NCBI GenBank assembly: GCA_021777995.1
Contig: JAJYCW010000004.1
Span: 1-64,000 of the forward strand
Origin: a bacterium
GTDB taxonomy: Bacteria; Armatimonadota; Chthonomonadetes; Chthonomonadales; Chthonomonadaceae
Direction: 5' to 3'
DNA length: 64,000 nucleotides
Shown here: positions 23,672 through 29,463 of the stretch, one piece after another
Numbering within the stretch: the stretch's first letter is position 1
Layout of the letters: every line of letters starts with the position of its first letter
Notes under the pieces: generated by a model
Database searches by the model: none
What the model was told of the DNA's origin: nothing
Seen by the model: the letters and a program-made list of their open reading frames with translations, nothing else
Program-made: the position numbers and the translations under genes

Positions 23672-25831
23672 ATGGCTACTGTTACCAGCGCGCCTGCTGA
23701 CGTACTGATAACACTGGTTTCTGATATTGGTATGCAGGGAGAATTTGCATCCCGCACTCTGGAAGTTACCAGTTCCTTCCTGAGGACAATTGAAGCAGAC
23801 GGCACAGAATCACTGCGCGTAGAACTCGCTGATATCATCACAGCCCGCAACGAGCCGCTCATTGGTGGCGGCCAAATGGAAGTTACTTGCAAAGGTGGGG
23901 TAATAATACCCGTCATTGCCTACTCGCTCACACTAGCCGCCGCCTTTTCTGAGTGCGCAAGGGGCATTGAACAGCTTGCAGGTGGTAACCCGTTAAGCAT
24001 AAAGATTAGCACTAAGCCACTTCGGTGTCAACAATGTGGTCGCTTGCTGCCCGATAAAGATGGTACCTGCCCGGTTTGCGTAAACCGAAATCGTACCTTC
24101 TACCGCATAGCCGGTTATCTCCGTCCCTACTTCCGGCAAGCGATGCTTCTCGTGGTTCTGTCGCTATGTACCACTGCCATAAATCTTGTTCCACCTCTGC
24201 TTCAGGGGCACCTTGTAGATGCAGTGTTTAACAAGCACCAACACCTGATCATACTATATAAGACCATCGCACTGTGGGCAGTGGTAATTGGCCTTACTGC
24301 CCTGTTGCAGATAGCTTCCGGTCGCACAACAGCCTACCTTGCCGGTAGTATTGCTGCCGATTTGCGCTCTGCCGTTTTTCAAGCAATTGAACTTCTGCAG
24401 GTGTCATATTTCGACAAGAAGCAGGTTGGCGCCATAACAAGCCGGGTTACTCAGGACACAGACCGCGTTTGGGGCTTTTTGGTTGATGGCCTACCATATC
24501 TGGCTTCAAATAGTCTGCTGTTTTTGGGCATCACGATAATGCTGATTGTCACCAACTGGCGTCTTGCCCTCGCCGTTATGGCGCCCGTTCCATTGATGTT
24601 AATTCTTAGCGCAGTAAGCTGGAGCAGCATCAGCCGGCTCTACTTCAAAGTAGGGCAAAAGTGGGCGCGGTTTCACATGCATCTTAACGAAGCACTAACC
24701 GGTATTAGAGTCGTCAAGATCTTCGCCCGAGAAGAAGCCGAGATGCACAAATTCCGCAGTCGAAATGGAGACCTGCGTAGTGCGGGTATTGAGGCAGATA
24801 CTCGCTGGTTCACGGTGTTTGGCGCCATGACACTTCTAGTTGCCTCGGGCCAGCTTATCAACTGGATTGTTGGCGGGGAAATGGTATACGCTCACGAAAT
24901 CACGCTGGGCCAGTTTATACAGGTCAACTCGTACATCGCCATGGTGTATGGTCCCCTGCAATGGTTTGGCGATCTCAATCAGTGGTTTAGCCGCGCAATG
25001 GCAGGGGCAGAGCGCATATTCGAAGTAATCGATGCGGAAACTGAGCCCTACGATGACACCGACAATCATCCTCCAATCGTCGGGCGTGTGGAATTCAATG
25101 GCGTTCGCTTTGGTTACGATAAGAGCAACCCCGTAATCAATGGACTCTCATTCGTTGCGGAACCGGGAGAAATGATTGGACTTGTGGGCAAATCCGGTGC
25201 AGGAAAGTCGACAACGATCAACCTGCTCTGCCGGTTTTACCAGCCAGACGCAGGAACAATATCAATAGACGGCGTGGACTACACCGAGTTTCAGTTACAA
25301 GCGCTTCGCAAGCAGGTGGGCGTAGTTCTTCAAGATCCTTTCCTTTTTAACGGGACAATAGCGGAGAACATTGCATACGCGCGGCCTAACGCACCCTTTG
25401 AAGAGATTGTGACTGCGGCACGACAGGCAAACGCGCACAATTTCATACTAGGCAAACCAGACGGCTATGATACGATGGTAGGTGAAAAGGGGGCACAGCT
25501 ATCCGGTGGTGAACGTCAGCGCATATCTATTGCCCGCGCCATCTTGCATAACCCGCGCATTCTTATCCTAGACGAAGCCACCAGCGCCGTCGATGTAGAA
25601 ACAGAGCGGCAAATTCAGGAGGCGCTCGCCAATCTAGTGAAGGGGCGCACAACTTTTGCAATAGCTCACCGGCTTTCTACGCTGCGCAATGCCGACCGCC
25701 TGATTGTGCTGGAAAAGGGGAGGATAGCCGAAATGGGTACACACAATGAATTGCTTGAAAAACAGGGTGTTTTCTATCATCTCGTGCAAACTCAGAGTCA
25801 GGTCACTCAGATTATGGAGGTGGGCGATTGA
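23672..25831 (+). CDS. ABC exporter with N-terminal accessory domain and zinc ribbon (cyanophycin-associated type)
   Basis: Fused ABC half-transporter (719 aa). Residues 1-115 form an unusual soluble domain with no transporter features. They are followed by a zinc-ribbon-like CxxC...CxxC (C119, C122, C133, C136). A six-helix exporter membrane domain covers about 140-430, and the ATPase is last: Walker A GKSGAGKST near 506, signature LSGGERQR near 610, Walker B ILILDEATSA after it. Exporters of this architecture that sit next to a DUF1854 gene are known from cyanophycin-metabolism loci, but no cyanophycin synthetase or cyanophycinase is encoded in this window. The ATG has GAGG 6 bases upstream. 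Its TGA overlaps the TTG start of the DUF1854 gene, implying translational coupling. The substrate is unknown. Confidence 0.85.
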   Translation: MATVTSAPADVLITLVSDIGMQGEFASRTLEVTSSFLRTIEADGTESLRVELADIITARNEPLIGGGQMEVTCKGGVIIPVIAYSLTLAAAFSECARGIEQLAGGNPLSIKISTKPLRCQQCGRLLPDKDGTCPVCVNRNRTFYRIAGYLRPYFRQAMLLVVLSLCTTAINLVPPLLQGHLVDAVFNKHQHLIILYKTIALWAVVIGLTALLQIASGRTTAYLAGSIAADLRSAVFQAIELLQVSYFDKKQVGAITSRVTQDTDRVWGFLVDGLPYLASNSLLFLGITIMLIVTNWRLALAVMAPVPLMLILSAVSWSSISRLYFKVGQKWARFHMHLNEALTGIRVVKIFAREEAEMHKFRSRNGDLRSAGIEADTRWFTVFGAMTLLVASGQLINWIVGGEMVYAHEITLGQFIQVNSYIAMVYGPLQWFGDLNQWFSRAMAGAERIFEVIDAETEPYDDTDNHPPIVGRVEFNGVRFGYDKSNPVINGLSFVAEPGEMIGLVGKSGAGKSTTINLLCRFYQPDAGTISIDGVDYTEFQLQALRKQVGVVLQDPFLFNGTIAENIAYARPNAPFEEIVTAARQANAHNFILGKPDGYDTMVGEKGAQLSGGERQRISIARAILHNPRILILDEATSAVDVETERQIQEALANLVKGRTTFAIAHRLSTLRNADRLIVLEKGRIAEMGTHNELLEKQGVFYHLVQTQSQVTQIMEVGD

Positions 25832-26316
25832 CGCCAGCACAGCCGCGCGCGCAGGATCTTCGCTTGTTCTGCAACCCGGATACTCAACTACGGCTGACGG
25901 TGAATGACGCGATCTCGTACACCTCTGTCACGCCAGTTTGGGCATCGCCCATGCGCTATCCCGGTCGGTATTTGGCACTCCTAGACGGCAAGGGCGAGGA
26001 GATCGTCACGCTGGCGGATCCTGACGAACTCGATGAGGAGTCCCTGAAAGCCGTAAAGGGTATCCTTCGGAAGCGAACGCTAACTGCTACCGTATTCGCA
26101 ATAAACCAGGTAAAAGTGGAGTATGGTGCGACCTACTGGACCGTTGAAACCGACCGCGGCATTCGCGAGTTCGTAACAGTCAACCTTCAGGAAACAGCCA
26201 ACTGGCTTAGCGATACGCATCTGCTTCTTTGCGATGTCGATGGAAACCGCTTCGAAATCAAAGATGCGACAGTACTAGACGTTAGAAGCAGGACGCTGCT
26301 GGCAAAAGCACTTTAG
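25828..26316 (+). CDS. DUF1854 family protein
   Basis: Small soluble protein (162 aa) of the DUF1854 family, typically paired with the ABC exporter just described. Recognisable features are the opening DLRLFCNPDTQLRLTVND, the middle PVWASPMRYPGRYLALLDGKG-type region and the end LLCDVDGNRFEIKD. The start is TTG, overlapping the exporter stop (TTGA) and preceded by GGAGGTG. That makes the two genes a coupled pair with a likely shared function. Biochemical role unknown. Confidence 0.82.
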   Translation: MTPAQPRAQDLRLFCNPDTQLRLTVNDAISYTSVTPVWASPMRYPGRYLALLDGKGEEIVTLADPDELDEESLKAVKGILRKRTLTATVFAINQVKVEYGATYWTVETDRGIREFVTVNLQETANWLSDTHLLLCDVDGNRFEIKDATVLDVRSRTLLAKAL

Positions 26317-26364: not shown

Positions 26365-28155
26365 CTATGCGGCTTCTCGTCCTACTCTTCTGCTGCGCTT
26401 GTCGGCGTACATGGCTCCATCCGATTTGCGCAATAGCTCCTGAAGGTCCGTGCCGTCTTCCGGGCATATTGCGATTCCTATGCTTAAACCTAGCAACGGA
26501 AATTGAGGGTCCCTCAACATCACCTTCTGAGCATATTTTTCCACGGCCTTGCGTAATTTGCCGGCTGCGATCTCCGCACCATTCCTGTCCGCACGCGCTA
26601 GCACAACGACAAACTCATCTCCCGCATATCGAGCCGCAAGGTCGTAATTCCTGACATGGCTCTGAAGTATGTCGCCAATGTCTTTCAGGATTTGATCACC
26701 CATTGCGTGTCCGTACTGATCGTTAATGGGCTTGAATTGATCAAGATCAATATTCAGTACTGCTAGTGTAGAACCGTCCCTGGAAATTCTATTGGTCTCT
26801 TTCTCCAGGTACTCTCGCAGAAATCGGTTGTTACGCAGCCCCGTAAGCGAATCGGTGTAGGCAGATTCTTGTGCTTCCTTAAACCGACGAGCATTCTCCA
26901 GTGCATGACCGGCCTGTCCCGCAATGAGCCGCATGACGCGCTCAGTTTCATGGTCGAAAGCCTCTGGTGATACGCTGTACAGGTTAATTACTCCCACGCA
27001 ATGCTCGCCCGCATTTAGAGGCACAATAAGCGTGGACCTAAAGGTTTCCCAGGTTTCACTCACGTTGCGAAGCATGATATCATCCGCAAGAAATGATGCG
27101 TGAACGACCTCATTGCGGTAGAATGCGCGGCCAGTGAGGTATGCTCCAACCCGTGCAGAACTACCCAGTAAATGACGGCGATTGCAGCCAAACGCAGCAA
27201 CCGCACGCAAGTATTCGCCTGCTGGCTCTGGTAGAAACAGGACACATCCATCGCAACCGGTAATAACCGAGATGCTTTTAAGAAGCGTGTCGGCCGCTGC
27301 CTCAAGGTGAAGCGAGCCGGTTAACGCCCTGGTGAGTTCCTGAAGAACCACAGACTCCTTTTGCGCGAGCGCAATATCCTGCAATGCCGCACGTCCATCT
27401 TCAATGGTCATCGCCAGCGAAGGATGTACTGCTGAAGATTCCTCAAGGTGCATCTGTGATACTGCTGACCGGAACGCAGCAACTACACCAGGATCGAACT
27501 GTGTTCCAGAGCGCGCCTCGATTTGCGCAATTGCCTCGGTAGGAGTGAGTGCAGGTCTGTACGGTCGCTCGTGCTGCAGCGCGCTGTAGGCATTCGCAAC
27601 TGCTAGCACCCTGGCTCCCACCGGTATGTGCGACCCTTTAAGGCCGTCTGGGTAACCAGACCCATCCCAGTGCTCCGCATGGTGCCTTACGAGGTCAACC
27701 ACCTGCCATGGAAATGGAACAGAAGCCAGGATGCGGGCACCTAACACCGGATGTGTACGGAGCTTCTCCATTTCATCAGGCGTAAGAGTATCAGCCTTGC
27801 GAAAAATATGCTCCGGCACCCCCAGGCGCCCAATGTTGTGAAGAAGCGCTGCAACGCGCAGGGCGGTCATATCCTGATCGTTTAGGCCCATCACCCTTGC
27901 TGTACTCAGGGCACAATTCTGAACGCACTCCAGGTGGCCAGAGCCATAGGGATCGGCAGCATCCAGAGCGAACCCCAGCGCTTCAATTACCGAAATGCAG
28001 AGATGCCGGCCTGCTTCTCGTTCCTCGGCCACCTTCAATGCGGCGTACTTTTGGGCGGCCCCGCGTGCCCGCCGTACCATCAGCAGAGCCCAAAGTCCTA
28101 GAAGCGCTGCCATCGCGACCACGATGAATGACGACCCGTATAAGTCTGCTATCAA
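26365..28155 (-). CDS. Membrane HD-GYP/GAF/GGDEF cyclic-di-GMP signalling protein
   Basis: A 596-aa signalling protein. One N-terminal transmembrane helix (about 8-28) is followed by an HD-GYP domain (about 55-225), a GAF domain (about 265-410) and a GGDEF domain (about 430-590). The GGDEF motif reads AGDEF near residue 510, and an inhibitory-site-type RNYD lies five residues before it, so cyclic-di-GMP synthesis is plausible. The HD-GYP part keeps the HWDGSGYP motif (162-169), but the HD pair is H106-N107, and the downstream metal-ligand Asp of the usual V-A-D-x-Y/F-D-A-L motif is Asn188 (VANAYSAL). Phosphodiesterase activity is therefore doubtful. It starts with TTG, with GGAGG 8 bases upstream, and is the last gene of an operon with two PilZ genes. 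Confidence 0.88.
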   Translation of the reverse strand: MIADLYGSSFIVVAMAALLGLWALLMVRRARGAAQKYAALKVAEEREAGRHLCISVIEALGFALDAADPYGSGHLECVQNCALSTARVMGLNDQDMTALRVAALLHNIGRLGVPEHIFRKADTLTPDEMEKLRTHPVLGARILASVPFPWQVVDLVRHHAEHWDGSGYPDGLKGSHIPVGARVLAVANAYSALQHERPYRPALTPTEAIAQIEARSGTQFDPGVVAAFRSAVSQMHLEESSAVHPSLAMTIEDGRAALQDIALAQKESVVLQELTRALTGSLHLEAAADTLLKSISVITGCDGCVLFLPEPAGEYLRAVAAFGCNRRHLLGSSARVGAYLTGRAFYRNEVVHASFLADDIMLRNVSETWETFRSTLIVPLNAGEHCVGVINLYSVSPEAFDHETERVMRLIAGQAGHALENARRFKEAQESAYTDSLTGLRNNRFLREYLEKETNRISRDGSTLAVLNIDLDQFKPINDQYGHAMGDQILKDIGDILQSHVRNYDLAARYAGDEFVVVLARADRNGAEIAAGKLRKAVEKYAQKVMLRDPQFPLLGLSIGIAICPEDGTDLQELLRKSDGAMYADKRSRRVGREAA

Positions 28156-28201: not shown

Positions 28202-28843
28202 TTAAGCTGCAAACAGATCGGATAACAGTTGGCCTTGCCTCGTACTGATCATCTCGAACCTTATCGCAAGTTCCCATAAATCACTGTCGGAAGCACGACG
28301 CCGTCTTGTCACACGTGCCGTAATACAGTCACGCGCCGCCGGTTGGTCGGCAGCTGATTCTTGTTGTGACGGCAATGATACTGCTATGACCTCACCAACT
28401 GCGAAGGCCGCAGCAGAAGTAAATCGCAACCCCCCTGCACCAAGTTCAGTACATATTGCAGGTACCCAACCTTTATCAGGCGCAGTACCGTCGTTTTTCG
28501 ATGCTACAGAAATTGGGAGGCTGCAATGCATTCGTGGCAATTTGCGGCGCTGGGCGGTTACGATATGCTGCCAACAACGAACCAGCAGGGTGCATCGTTG
28601 AGAGCTCGTAACACCCACCAGAGCAACACCGCCCTCCAATTCCGTCACGAACTCTCCATCCTCTACTCGCAGCCGGACAGTATCGCCCCACTGAGGAATA
28701 TAGTCGCCAACCAGCTGCACCATGGCAGTCCCGGCACATAGGCGAATTAACAGTGCACTGAAAAGTGTTCTAGAACCAGCCTTGGGGTTCTTAACGAGAA
28801 GTTGTGCCTCAACCGGACCTGTAACGGTAATAGAAGGGATCAT
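28202..28843 (-). CDS. PilZ-domain protein, degenerate second motif
   Basis: Cytosolic cyclic-di-GMP receptor-like protein (213 aa). An N-terminal YcgR-N-like beta domain (about 1-95) is followed by a PilZ domain. The arginine motif is present as RRKLPR (near residue 99), but the second motif, normally D/N-x-S-x-x-G, reads ELGAGG, so ligand binding may be altered. The start ATG overlaps the stop of the upstream PilZ gene (ATGA) and has AGGTG 6 bases upstream. It is the middle gene of the operon ending with the HD-GYP/GGDEF protein. Confidence 0.78.
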   Translation of the reverse strand: MIPSITVTGPVEAQLLVKNPKAGSRTLFSALLIRLCAGTAMVQLVGDYIPQWGDTVRLRVEDGEFVTELEGGVALVGVTSSQRCTLLVRCWQHIVTAQRRKLPRMHCSLPISVASKNDGTAPDKGWVPAICTELGAGGLRFTSAAAFAVGEVIAVSLPSQQESAADQPAARDCITARVTRRRRASDSDLWELAIRFEMISTRQGQLLSDLFAA

Positions 28844-29463
28844 GTTGGCACCTGCATTCTCGAGACATACTTCTGAATTTCCAGTTGATCGACCCTGGAA
28901 ACCTTCGTAAAGCGAATGGAAACCAGATAACGCCCTTGTGGTTCACCGGGTCTCTCCGGTGCCGCTGCGCTTCGAACAACAACCCCCTCTAACACAATTA
29001 GATGGTCGTCTTCAGCGCGAATTTCTAGCAGAAGGTTGACGCCAGAGCACAGAATATGATCCATCCGCATCCTTAACCCGCCAATACTCAAATCTACGGT
29101 GTTCGCGGATTGGCTGTCCCTTGCAAAACATCCCGGGGCATCTTCAATATTTGCTCCTAGGCAAAACCGCACAGGCAGGTACCCAGCCACGCGTGTAGAT
29201 CTGCGACGTTGAATGAGGCATGGCCGAGTGCGCTTGACAACAAACTGACCGGCTTTAGCCTTGAGTACGCGTGTATCCATTTGAAACAGGCCCTTGCTTT
29301 GAGCCAGCGTAAGGCTTACGGGAACACCCTCCGCAAACAGGTCGTCGGATCCAGGCGGAATGCAGATTAGCAAGTGGTCATCATCGGTCTGGCGTACTAC
29401 GCCTGTATACCTACACTGTTGACCCAGCACGTCAATTTCCAGCTTGTCTCCGGCTTCAAACAT
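28840..29463 (-). CDS. PilZ-domain cyclic-di-GMP receptor (YcgR-like)
   Basis: Cytosolic protein (207 aa) with an N-terminal YcgR-N-like domain and a canonical PilZ domain: RRRSTR near residue 86 and DLSIGG near residue 125. Both cyclic-di-GMP-binding motifs are intact, unlike in its neighbour. Family members change flagellar, pilus or polysaccharide output on ligand binding. It is the first gene of the three-gene cyclic-di-GMP operon, with AAGGAC upstream of its ATG. Confidence 0.85.
   Translation of the reverse strand: MFEAGDKLEIDVLGQQCRYTGVVRQTDDDHLLICIPPGSDDLFAEGVPVSLTLAQSKGLFQMDTRVLKAKAGQFVVKRTRPCLIQRRRSTRVAGYLPVRFCLGANIEDAPGCFARDSQSANTVDLSIGGLRMRMDHILCSGVNLLLEIRAEDDHLIVLEGVVVRSAAAPERPGEPQGRYLVSIRFTKVSRVDQLEIQKYVSRMQVPT

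Follow-up and report, generated by a model that had tools for sequence, protein, structure and literature searches.

What does an HD-GYP phosphodiesterase domain do once its catalytic residues have been replaced, when it is fused to an apparently live diguanylate cyclase? The question is raised by a gene at positions 26365-28155 (minus strand) of the window, by which we mean the whole stretch of 64,000 nucleotides analysed here. Its product of 596 amino acids comprises, according to the open reading frame and its Pfam matches, a putative transmembrane segment, a degenerate HD-GYP domain (HN-GYP), a GAF domain and a GGDEF domain. The answer that we favour, with a probability of roughly 0.55, is that HN-GYP would be a pseudo-phosphodiesterase which senses c-di-GMP and controls the cyclase fused to it. 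A sensor and a live cyclase had both been suggested in a preliminary description of the locus, and we favour these readings because the nucleotide contacts are kept, the domain is under purifying selection, the receptor DvhD is its better match and the cyclase motifs are intact.

Metal site and cyclase motifs

The reading frame starts with TTG, and GGAGG lies 8 nt upstream (a Shine-Dalgarno sequence read by eye). A hydrophobic N-terminal segment (about residues 9-27; 28075-28131, minus strand, like all features of this section), followed by RR, was picked out by eye as a putative membrane anchor, and the protein is probably anchored in the membrane. The degenerate HD-GYP domain covers residues 50-235 (27451-28008), as delimited by Pfam HD_5 and by matches to HD-GYP structures; HD_5 itself (PF13487) spans residues 65-223 with 148.8 bits against a curated cut-off of 27.2, and the domain belongs to this family by descent. 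It is followed by a GAF domain (residues 283-420; 26896-27309; Pfam GAF_2, above cut-off) and by a GGDEF diguanylate cyclase domain with the motif AGDEF (residues 432-590; 26386-26862; Pfam, 148.7 bits). The nearest named relative is a protein 97% identical to ours in a Chthonomonadaceae MAG (L042; phylum Armatimonadota). The genome that carries the window has 14 GGDEF, 11 HD_5 and 4 PilZ matches in total, and Rfam gave 0 matches across the window at the gathering threshold.

Residue equivalences were taken from an alignment with the active enzyme PmGH, numbered after PMC4159591. Three of the seven metal ligands common to HD-GYP enzymes are replaced: the HD pair (PmGH H221-D222) reads H106-N107 (27835-27840), A160 (27676-27678) stands for the second His of the HH pair (H277) and N188 (27592-27594) for the Asp ligand D305, equivalent to N641 of DvhD. 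The preliminary description had singled out the changes at 107 and 188, both of which are present in the translated reading frame, but the damage extends further than these two Asp, to A160, to S191 (27583-27585) in place of D308, to C77 where PmGH has R192, the hydrogen-bond partner of D308, and to R110 at the Lys of HDxxK (K225). The loss at A160 is easy to overlook because H158-H159 resembles the catalytic pair, shifted by one residue; the triad H159-A160-E161 aligns with H276-H277-E278, so that one His of the pair is missing. PmGH E185 corresponds to Y70, and Tyr at this site is usual in the Y/F subfamily of PMC4159591. Four His ligands are retained, H74, H106, H135 and H159 (PmGH H189, H221, H250 and H276), as are the GYP Tyr and the sites of PmGH R314 and K317 (Y168, R197 and R200), and the HWDGSGYP motif can be read as previously stated. 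The features of an active c-di-GMP phosphodiesterase are thus present as regards the GYP motif and contact Arg, and absent as regards the HD pair (HN), both His of HH (HA), and Asp or Glu at D305 together with Asp at D308.

In PmGH, activity is reported to be lost in the mutants D222A, H277A, D308A and K225A, with some activity left in D305A and E185A (PMC4159591). The predicted loss of phosphodiesterase activity from HN-GYP is well supported, since our protein has replaced ligands that PmGH cannot exchange for Ala without losing activity. That HN-GYP still hydrolyses a cyclic dinucleotide, by way of a reduced or altered metal site, seems very improbable. The four remaining His make metal binding possible, D305A and E185A of PmGH are partly active (PMC4159591), and Bd1817, whose H277 and D305 sites are occupied by Glu and Asn, binds two irons; Bd1817 is itself inactive, however, and at the four sites where the PmGH mutants, all of them Ala mutants, are dead, our protein has N, A, S and R.

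In the cyclase half the motifs read AGDEF, where the preliminary description gave GGDEF, together with FKPIND, GHAMGD and RNYD. All are intact with respect to the set that marks diguanylate cyclases, [GA]GDEF, FKxxND, GHxxGD and RxxD, the Asp of GHxxGD being expected in a GGDEF domain that synthesizes c-di-GMP. RNYD (R502-N-Y-D505; 26641-26652), 5 residues before AGDEF, is the inhibitory site, which had correctly been said to remain. The four motifs are likewise intact in the 8 family sequences with HN or HT described below and in L021. That the cyclase stays active is the best-supported reading of these motifs.

Orthologues and the order of the losses

Matches at E <= 1e-60 were obtained in 61 of the 201 genomes searched. 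Within the order, 16 of 31 genomes matched: 12 carry an HN-GYP orthologue (nine in family f1, to which our protein belongs, and three in the sister family f3), and the remaining four have paralogues only, with D222 and H277 kept. Residues were counted in a 74-row alignment of our protein, the order orthologues and 61 other homologues, a duplicate of our protein (L012) being left out. The 61 others come from genomes matched at E <= 1e-60, with the addition of own-genome paralogues passing 1e-50 (L001, L003 and L004); the own-genome matches L005 to L011, including L009, which has HN, lie outside this set.

The H277 ligand is lost in all 12 order orthologues (6 Ala, 3 Cys, 2 Ser and 1 Arg) and retained in 61/61 other homologues. 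At the D222 site, the eight family orthologues that cover it have 7 Asn and 1 Thr, against Asp in 61/61 others, so that Asn is not common there and the alignment check proposed in the preliminary description bears out its view of Asn107. All 7 family genera in which the site can be read have HN or HT, or 6 if G005 is set aside because its contig begins beyond it. Asp or Glu is absent from the D305 site in all nine family rows (6 Asn, 1 Ser, 1 Ile and 1 His), and the others have 50 Asp, 8 Glu, 2 Asn and 1 Val; Asn188 alone makes weak evidence, given these exceptions and the activity left in PmGH D305A (PMC4159591). All seven ligands are present in 56 of the 61 others if Glu is accepted at D305, and in 48 strictly. 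Chance or sequencing error is ruled out as a source of the replacements, the same states recurring in two genomes whose proteins are 97% and 91% identical to ours (G002 and G001).

A tree was built from GAF and GGDEF columns alone, and the lost HD-GYP residues therefore cannot shape it (L001, L003, L106, L123, L125, L129 and L131, which are short or partial, were left out). The 12 order orthologues fall on one side of a branch with strong support (100/100), as do the nine family rows (100/100). In the simplest history, H277 would have been lost in the ancestor of the order and D222, D305, D308 and R192 then in that of the family, with separate losses in f3. There, H250 is lost in L020, L023 and L108 and H276 in L023 and L108, and D222 has become Glu in L108; L020 retains HD and the Asp at the 188 site, with H250 and H277 lost, and L023 has also lost the GYP Tyr and contact Arg. 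Because these three proteins lose other ligands, and L023 contact residues too, the HD-GYP domain of f3 may be on a different path.

Altered HD-GYP domains were also encountered outside the clade. L030 (G111) and L033 (G037) have Asn at the D305 site with HD and HH intact. In another line, L117 (G104), L118 (G121) and L101 (G116) have Leu or Arg for the His of HD (LLD, IRD), with Leu at H221 in L117 and L118 and changes at three ligand sites in L101, so that loss of catalysis may have occurred elsewhere in the phylum too. The own genome encodes an unrelated GGDEF - HD-GYP protein (L009; G000:C52:5879-6361) that reads LLHNIGE (HN) at the HD pair and SN at the D305 site, thereby repeating both Asp-to-Asn changes; it keeps HH and has lost the contact Arg. 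It also encodes a tandem HD-GYP protein (L008/L011; G000:C173:12629-13753) of which the first copy (HLDEHWDGHGSP) is degenerate and the second has HD and HH; two HD-GYP stretches occur also in the cGAMP phosphodiesterase 5z7c.

Selection, nucleotide contacts and likeness to DvhD

Purifying selection acts on the HD-GYP domain. Compared with the protein of G002 (L013), it has undergone 111 synonymous against 3 nonsynonymous changes, with 185/186 residues identical, and compared with that of G001 (L014), 109.8 synonymous and 14.2 nonsynonymous changes; because dS either reaches saturation or cannot be computed in these comparisons, we give counts of changes instead of ratios. A decaying domain was rejected on the basis of the 111 to 3 count. 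Across other genera the HD-GYP domain is about as conserved as the GGDEF domain (135/186 and 109/159 identical residues in G003, 122/186 and 103/159 in G012); in G006 it is the less conserved of the two (110/186 against 103/159).

The residues preserved can be compared with those of DvhD from Desulfovibrio vulgaris (PDB 9rbz, 9rc0), in which HD is replaced by SQ and HH by MN and which is reported to bind c-di-GMP with a Kd of 99 nM without hydrolysis, and cGAMP with a Kd of 501 nM (PMC13090378). The seven metal ligands are found in 31/59 family cells of the alignment versus 364/371 cells of 53 other homologues (the 61 minus L001, L003, L004, L106, L126, L129, L130 and L131). Five contacts (L124, Y168, R197, Y199 and R200), hand-picked from the nine of DvhD by leaving out the equivalents of Y70 and L193 as well as K582 and E668, are found in 42/44 family cells versus 260/265 cells of the same 53, and in 7/14 cells of the f3 orthologues. 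When all nine contacts are counted, the DvhD residue is matched in 49/78 family cells versus 332/549 in the 61 others. By these alignments the nucleotide cradle is kept at an ordinary level and not sharpened, and since the nine-contact match is only ordinary, retention of the contacts could be a fold constraint. Between residues 50 and 595 there are 9 positions at which a residue shared by 85% or more of the 53 others has been replaced in the family; 8 of these belong to the HD-GYP domain, and most of the 8 map to the metal site and contact loop.

DvhD is off the HD-GYP consensus at six of those eight positions (77, 107, 160, 189, 191 and 195). Like our protein it is altered at PmGH D222, H277, D305 (Asn in both), D308 and R192 and at sites 189 and 195, although the replacing residues differ except at D305 and site 189. 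The equivalents of DvhD Y523, P567, L577, Y621, R650, Y652 and R653 are retained in our protein, whereas K582, E668 and the bridging-site K520 are M129, S216 and A67. DvhD has lost further His (SQ, MN) where our protein keeps four, and its architecture is different, a periplasmic dCache-PAS-HD-GYP protein with no cyclase as opposed to TM - HD-GYP - GAF - GGDEF. Our protein may work like DvhD but is not classed here as a DvhD orthologue. The likeness is probably convergent, because the GAF and GGDEF tree places the protein among Armatimonadota homologues whose HD-GYP domains are mostly intact; the same tree led us to reject a deep DvhD-like ancestor as the origin of the degenerate state.

Comparison of scores also sets DvhD apart. 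In bits to DvhD, PmGH and PA4781, our protein scores 108.3, 92.8 and 81.5, L015 scores 121.2, 90.1 and 91.0 and L018 scores 108.1, 93.8 and 78.8; DvhD outscores the two active enzymes for all three, and the reverse holds for the intact relatives L022 (106.1, 143.3 and 120.5) and L025 (96.1, 145.9 and 121.9), the comparison covering 3 of the 9 family rows and 2 of the 61 others. A predicted structure of our protein (mean pLDDT 89.7) has a pTM of 0.60, which leaves the arrangement of its domains unsure. The solved structure of highest Z against the predicted fold is DvhD (Z 25.9 over 191 residues, 2.3 A), followed by PA4781 (24.2) and PmGH (23.6), in a comparison that covered our protein. When Foldseek results are ranked by E-value, multidomain cyclases lead, and DvhD comes ahead of all other HD-GYP entries. 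The fold alignment (A1) holds our protein and 61 of 66 candidate rows, with L040, L108, L123, L125 and L132 left out. The active PmGH (PDB 4mcw) and PA4781 (4r8z) share with our protein the fold, the GYP or GFP loop and the four His ligands, and PmGH the contact Arg; PmGH differs in D222, H277, D305, D308, R192 and K225, all of which are replaced in HN-GYP.

The top solved structure by sequence is neither DvhD nor an active c-di-GMP enzyme but the cGAMP phosphodiesterase 5z7c (130.5 bits), which, with the affinity of DvhD for cGAMP (PMC13090378), could suggest that HN-GYP is a receptor whose ligand is not c-di-GMP but, for example, 3'3'-cGAMP or pGpG. This we regard as quite improbable: the 5z7c score is summed over two HD-GYP copies, and by single copy DvhD is the highest-scoring HD-GYP domain (108.0 bits, the better 5z7c copy giving 93.6); intact relatives also have 5z7c in first or second place; and the fused GGDEF domain retains the GHxxGD Asp.

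Other inactive HD-GYP proteins resemble ours less closely and lend themselves to another interpretation. PA2572 of Pseudomonas aeruginosa (YN-GYP) has an altered HD pair like our protein, but is a REC-YN-GYP response regulator without a cyclase; its c-di-GMP hydrolysis is reported as undetectable, yet it has a role (PMC3411652). Bd1817 (PDB 3tm8) is inactive as well, with Asn at the D305 site and Glu at the H277 site (the matching of sites is our own count), but it keeps the HD pair and two irons and lacks the GYP Tyr, where our protein has a changed HD and keeps the Tyr. Its closed lid is thought to exclude nucleotide (PMC4159591, PMC3774798), so that an inactive HD-GYP domain need not be a receptor. 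NosR, with HG-GTP, has been proposed to act on other enzymes (PMC12570481). On these precedents, and with PilZ genes adjoining its own gene, HN-GYP could be a structural or protein-interaction module only, a dimerization stalk or a docking site for PilZ or other proteins, with no nucleotide bound. We consider this rather unlikely, as Y168, R197 and R200 are present in 9/9 family rows while adjacent ligands drift, and as PA2573 is bound by the REC domain of PA2572 and not by its YN-GYP domain (PMC3411652).

PilZ genes and a possible writer-reader unit

Directly upstream, 46 bp from the HN-GYP start, lies a gene for a PilZ-domain protein of 213 aa (28202-28843, minus strand; Pfam PilZ, 35.6 bits), which is overlapped by 4 bp by a gene for a second one of 207 aa (28840-29463, minus strand; 38.2 bits). 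The two account for half of the four PilZ matches in the genome. PilZ domains bind c-di-GMP through the motifs RxxxR and [DN]xSxxG. By eye, the product of 28840-29463 has RRSTR and DLSIGG, and in that of 28202-28843, RKLPR is present but ELGAGG stands in place of the second motif, so that this protein may not bind c-di-GMP.

A PilZ gene is found upstream of HN-GYP in 7 of the 8 family genomes with readable upstream DNA, namely the own genome, G001, G002, G003 (two genes), G006 (three), G010 and G012; for G001 and G002 the loci were read from L043 and L042, records with equally scoring proteins. In G008 a 2-oxoacid dehydrogenase gene is upstream of the orthologue and there is no PilZ gene, and G005 is outside the eight as its contig ends within the gene. 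At the three f3 loci, searched with phmmer only, no PilZ match was obtained. A scan for promoters and terminators gave no more sites than in shuffled sequences, and the case for an operon is therefore made by the orientation, overlap and spacing of the genes. Genes for an ABC transporter and a DUF1854 protein, overlapping by 4 bp, occupy 23672-26316 on the plus strand and adjoin the locus in L042 and L043 as well; the DUF1854 gene had no match at the other loci as fetched.

If HN-GYP is a sensor, as we favour, the domain would, like DvhD, bind c-di-GMP (or a closely related molecule) and leave it uncut, and binding would alter the geometry of the stalk and dimer. By way of the GAF domain the change would reach the GGDEF dimer and tune cyclase output, adding a feedback switch to the RxxD site; activation and inhibition are both possible. 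The PilZ proteins encoded upstream would be the likely readers of the signal. Extended to the clade, this suggests a writer-reader unit in which a former eraser reads c-di-GMP and allosterically sets the cyclase of its own chain, with co-transcribed PilZ proteins as effectors. H277 would have been lost first, then D222, D305 and D308, with the cradle kept, and the domain would have converged with DvhD on metal-site positions while being wired to synthesis and not to adhesin proteolysis. We offer this wider proposal tentatively, as possible though doubtful in its entirety.

Dead GGDEF-EAL receptors such as LapD are well known, and an HD-GYP domain acting as a receptor was shown structurally in 2026 with DvhD (both in PMC13090378). 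Inactive HD-GYP proteins (PA2572, Bd1817, NosR and DvhD), and reading by a dead HD-GYP domain, are thus already known. In the open-access literature we found nothing on a TM-HD-GYP-GAF-GGDEF fusion, or on HD-GYP proteins in Armatimonadetes or Chthonomonas, though work using other names could be missed. The present case joins a receptor-like HD-GYP domain to a cyclase that looks live. Other HD-GYP receptors may be recognizable by a signature suggested here, in which H277, D222 and the D308-R192 pair are lost but the GYP Tyr and contact Arg remain. Since the losses can be placed on the tree, with HD-intact relatives as natural controls, the change from eraser to reader that we propose for this family is testable residue by residue.
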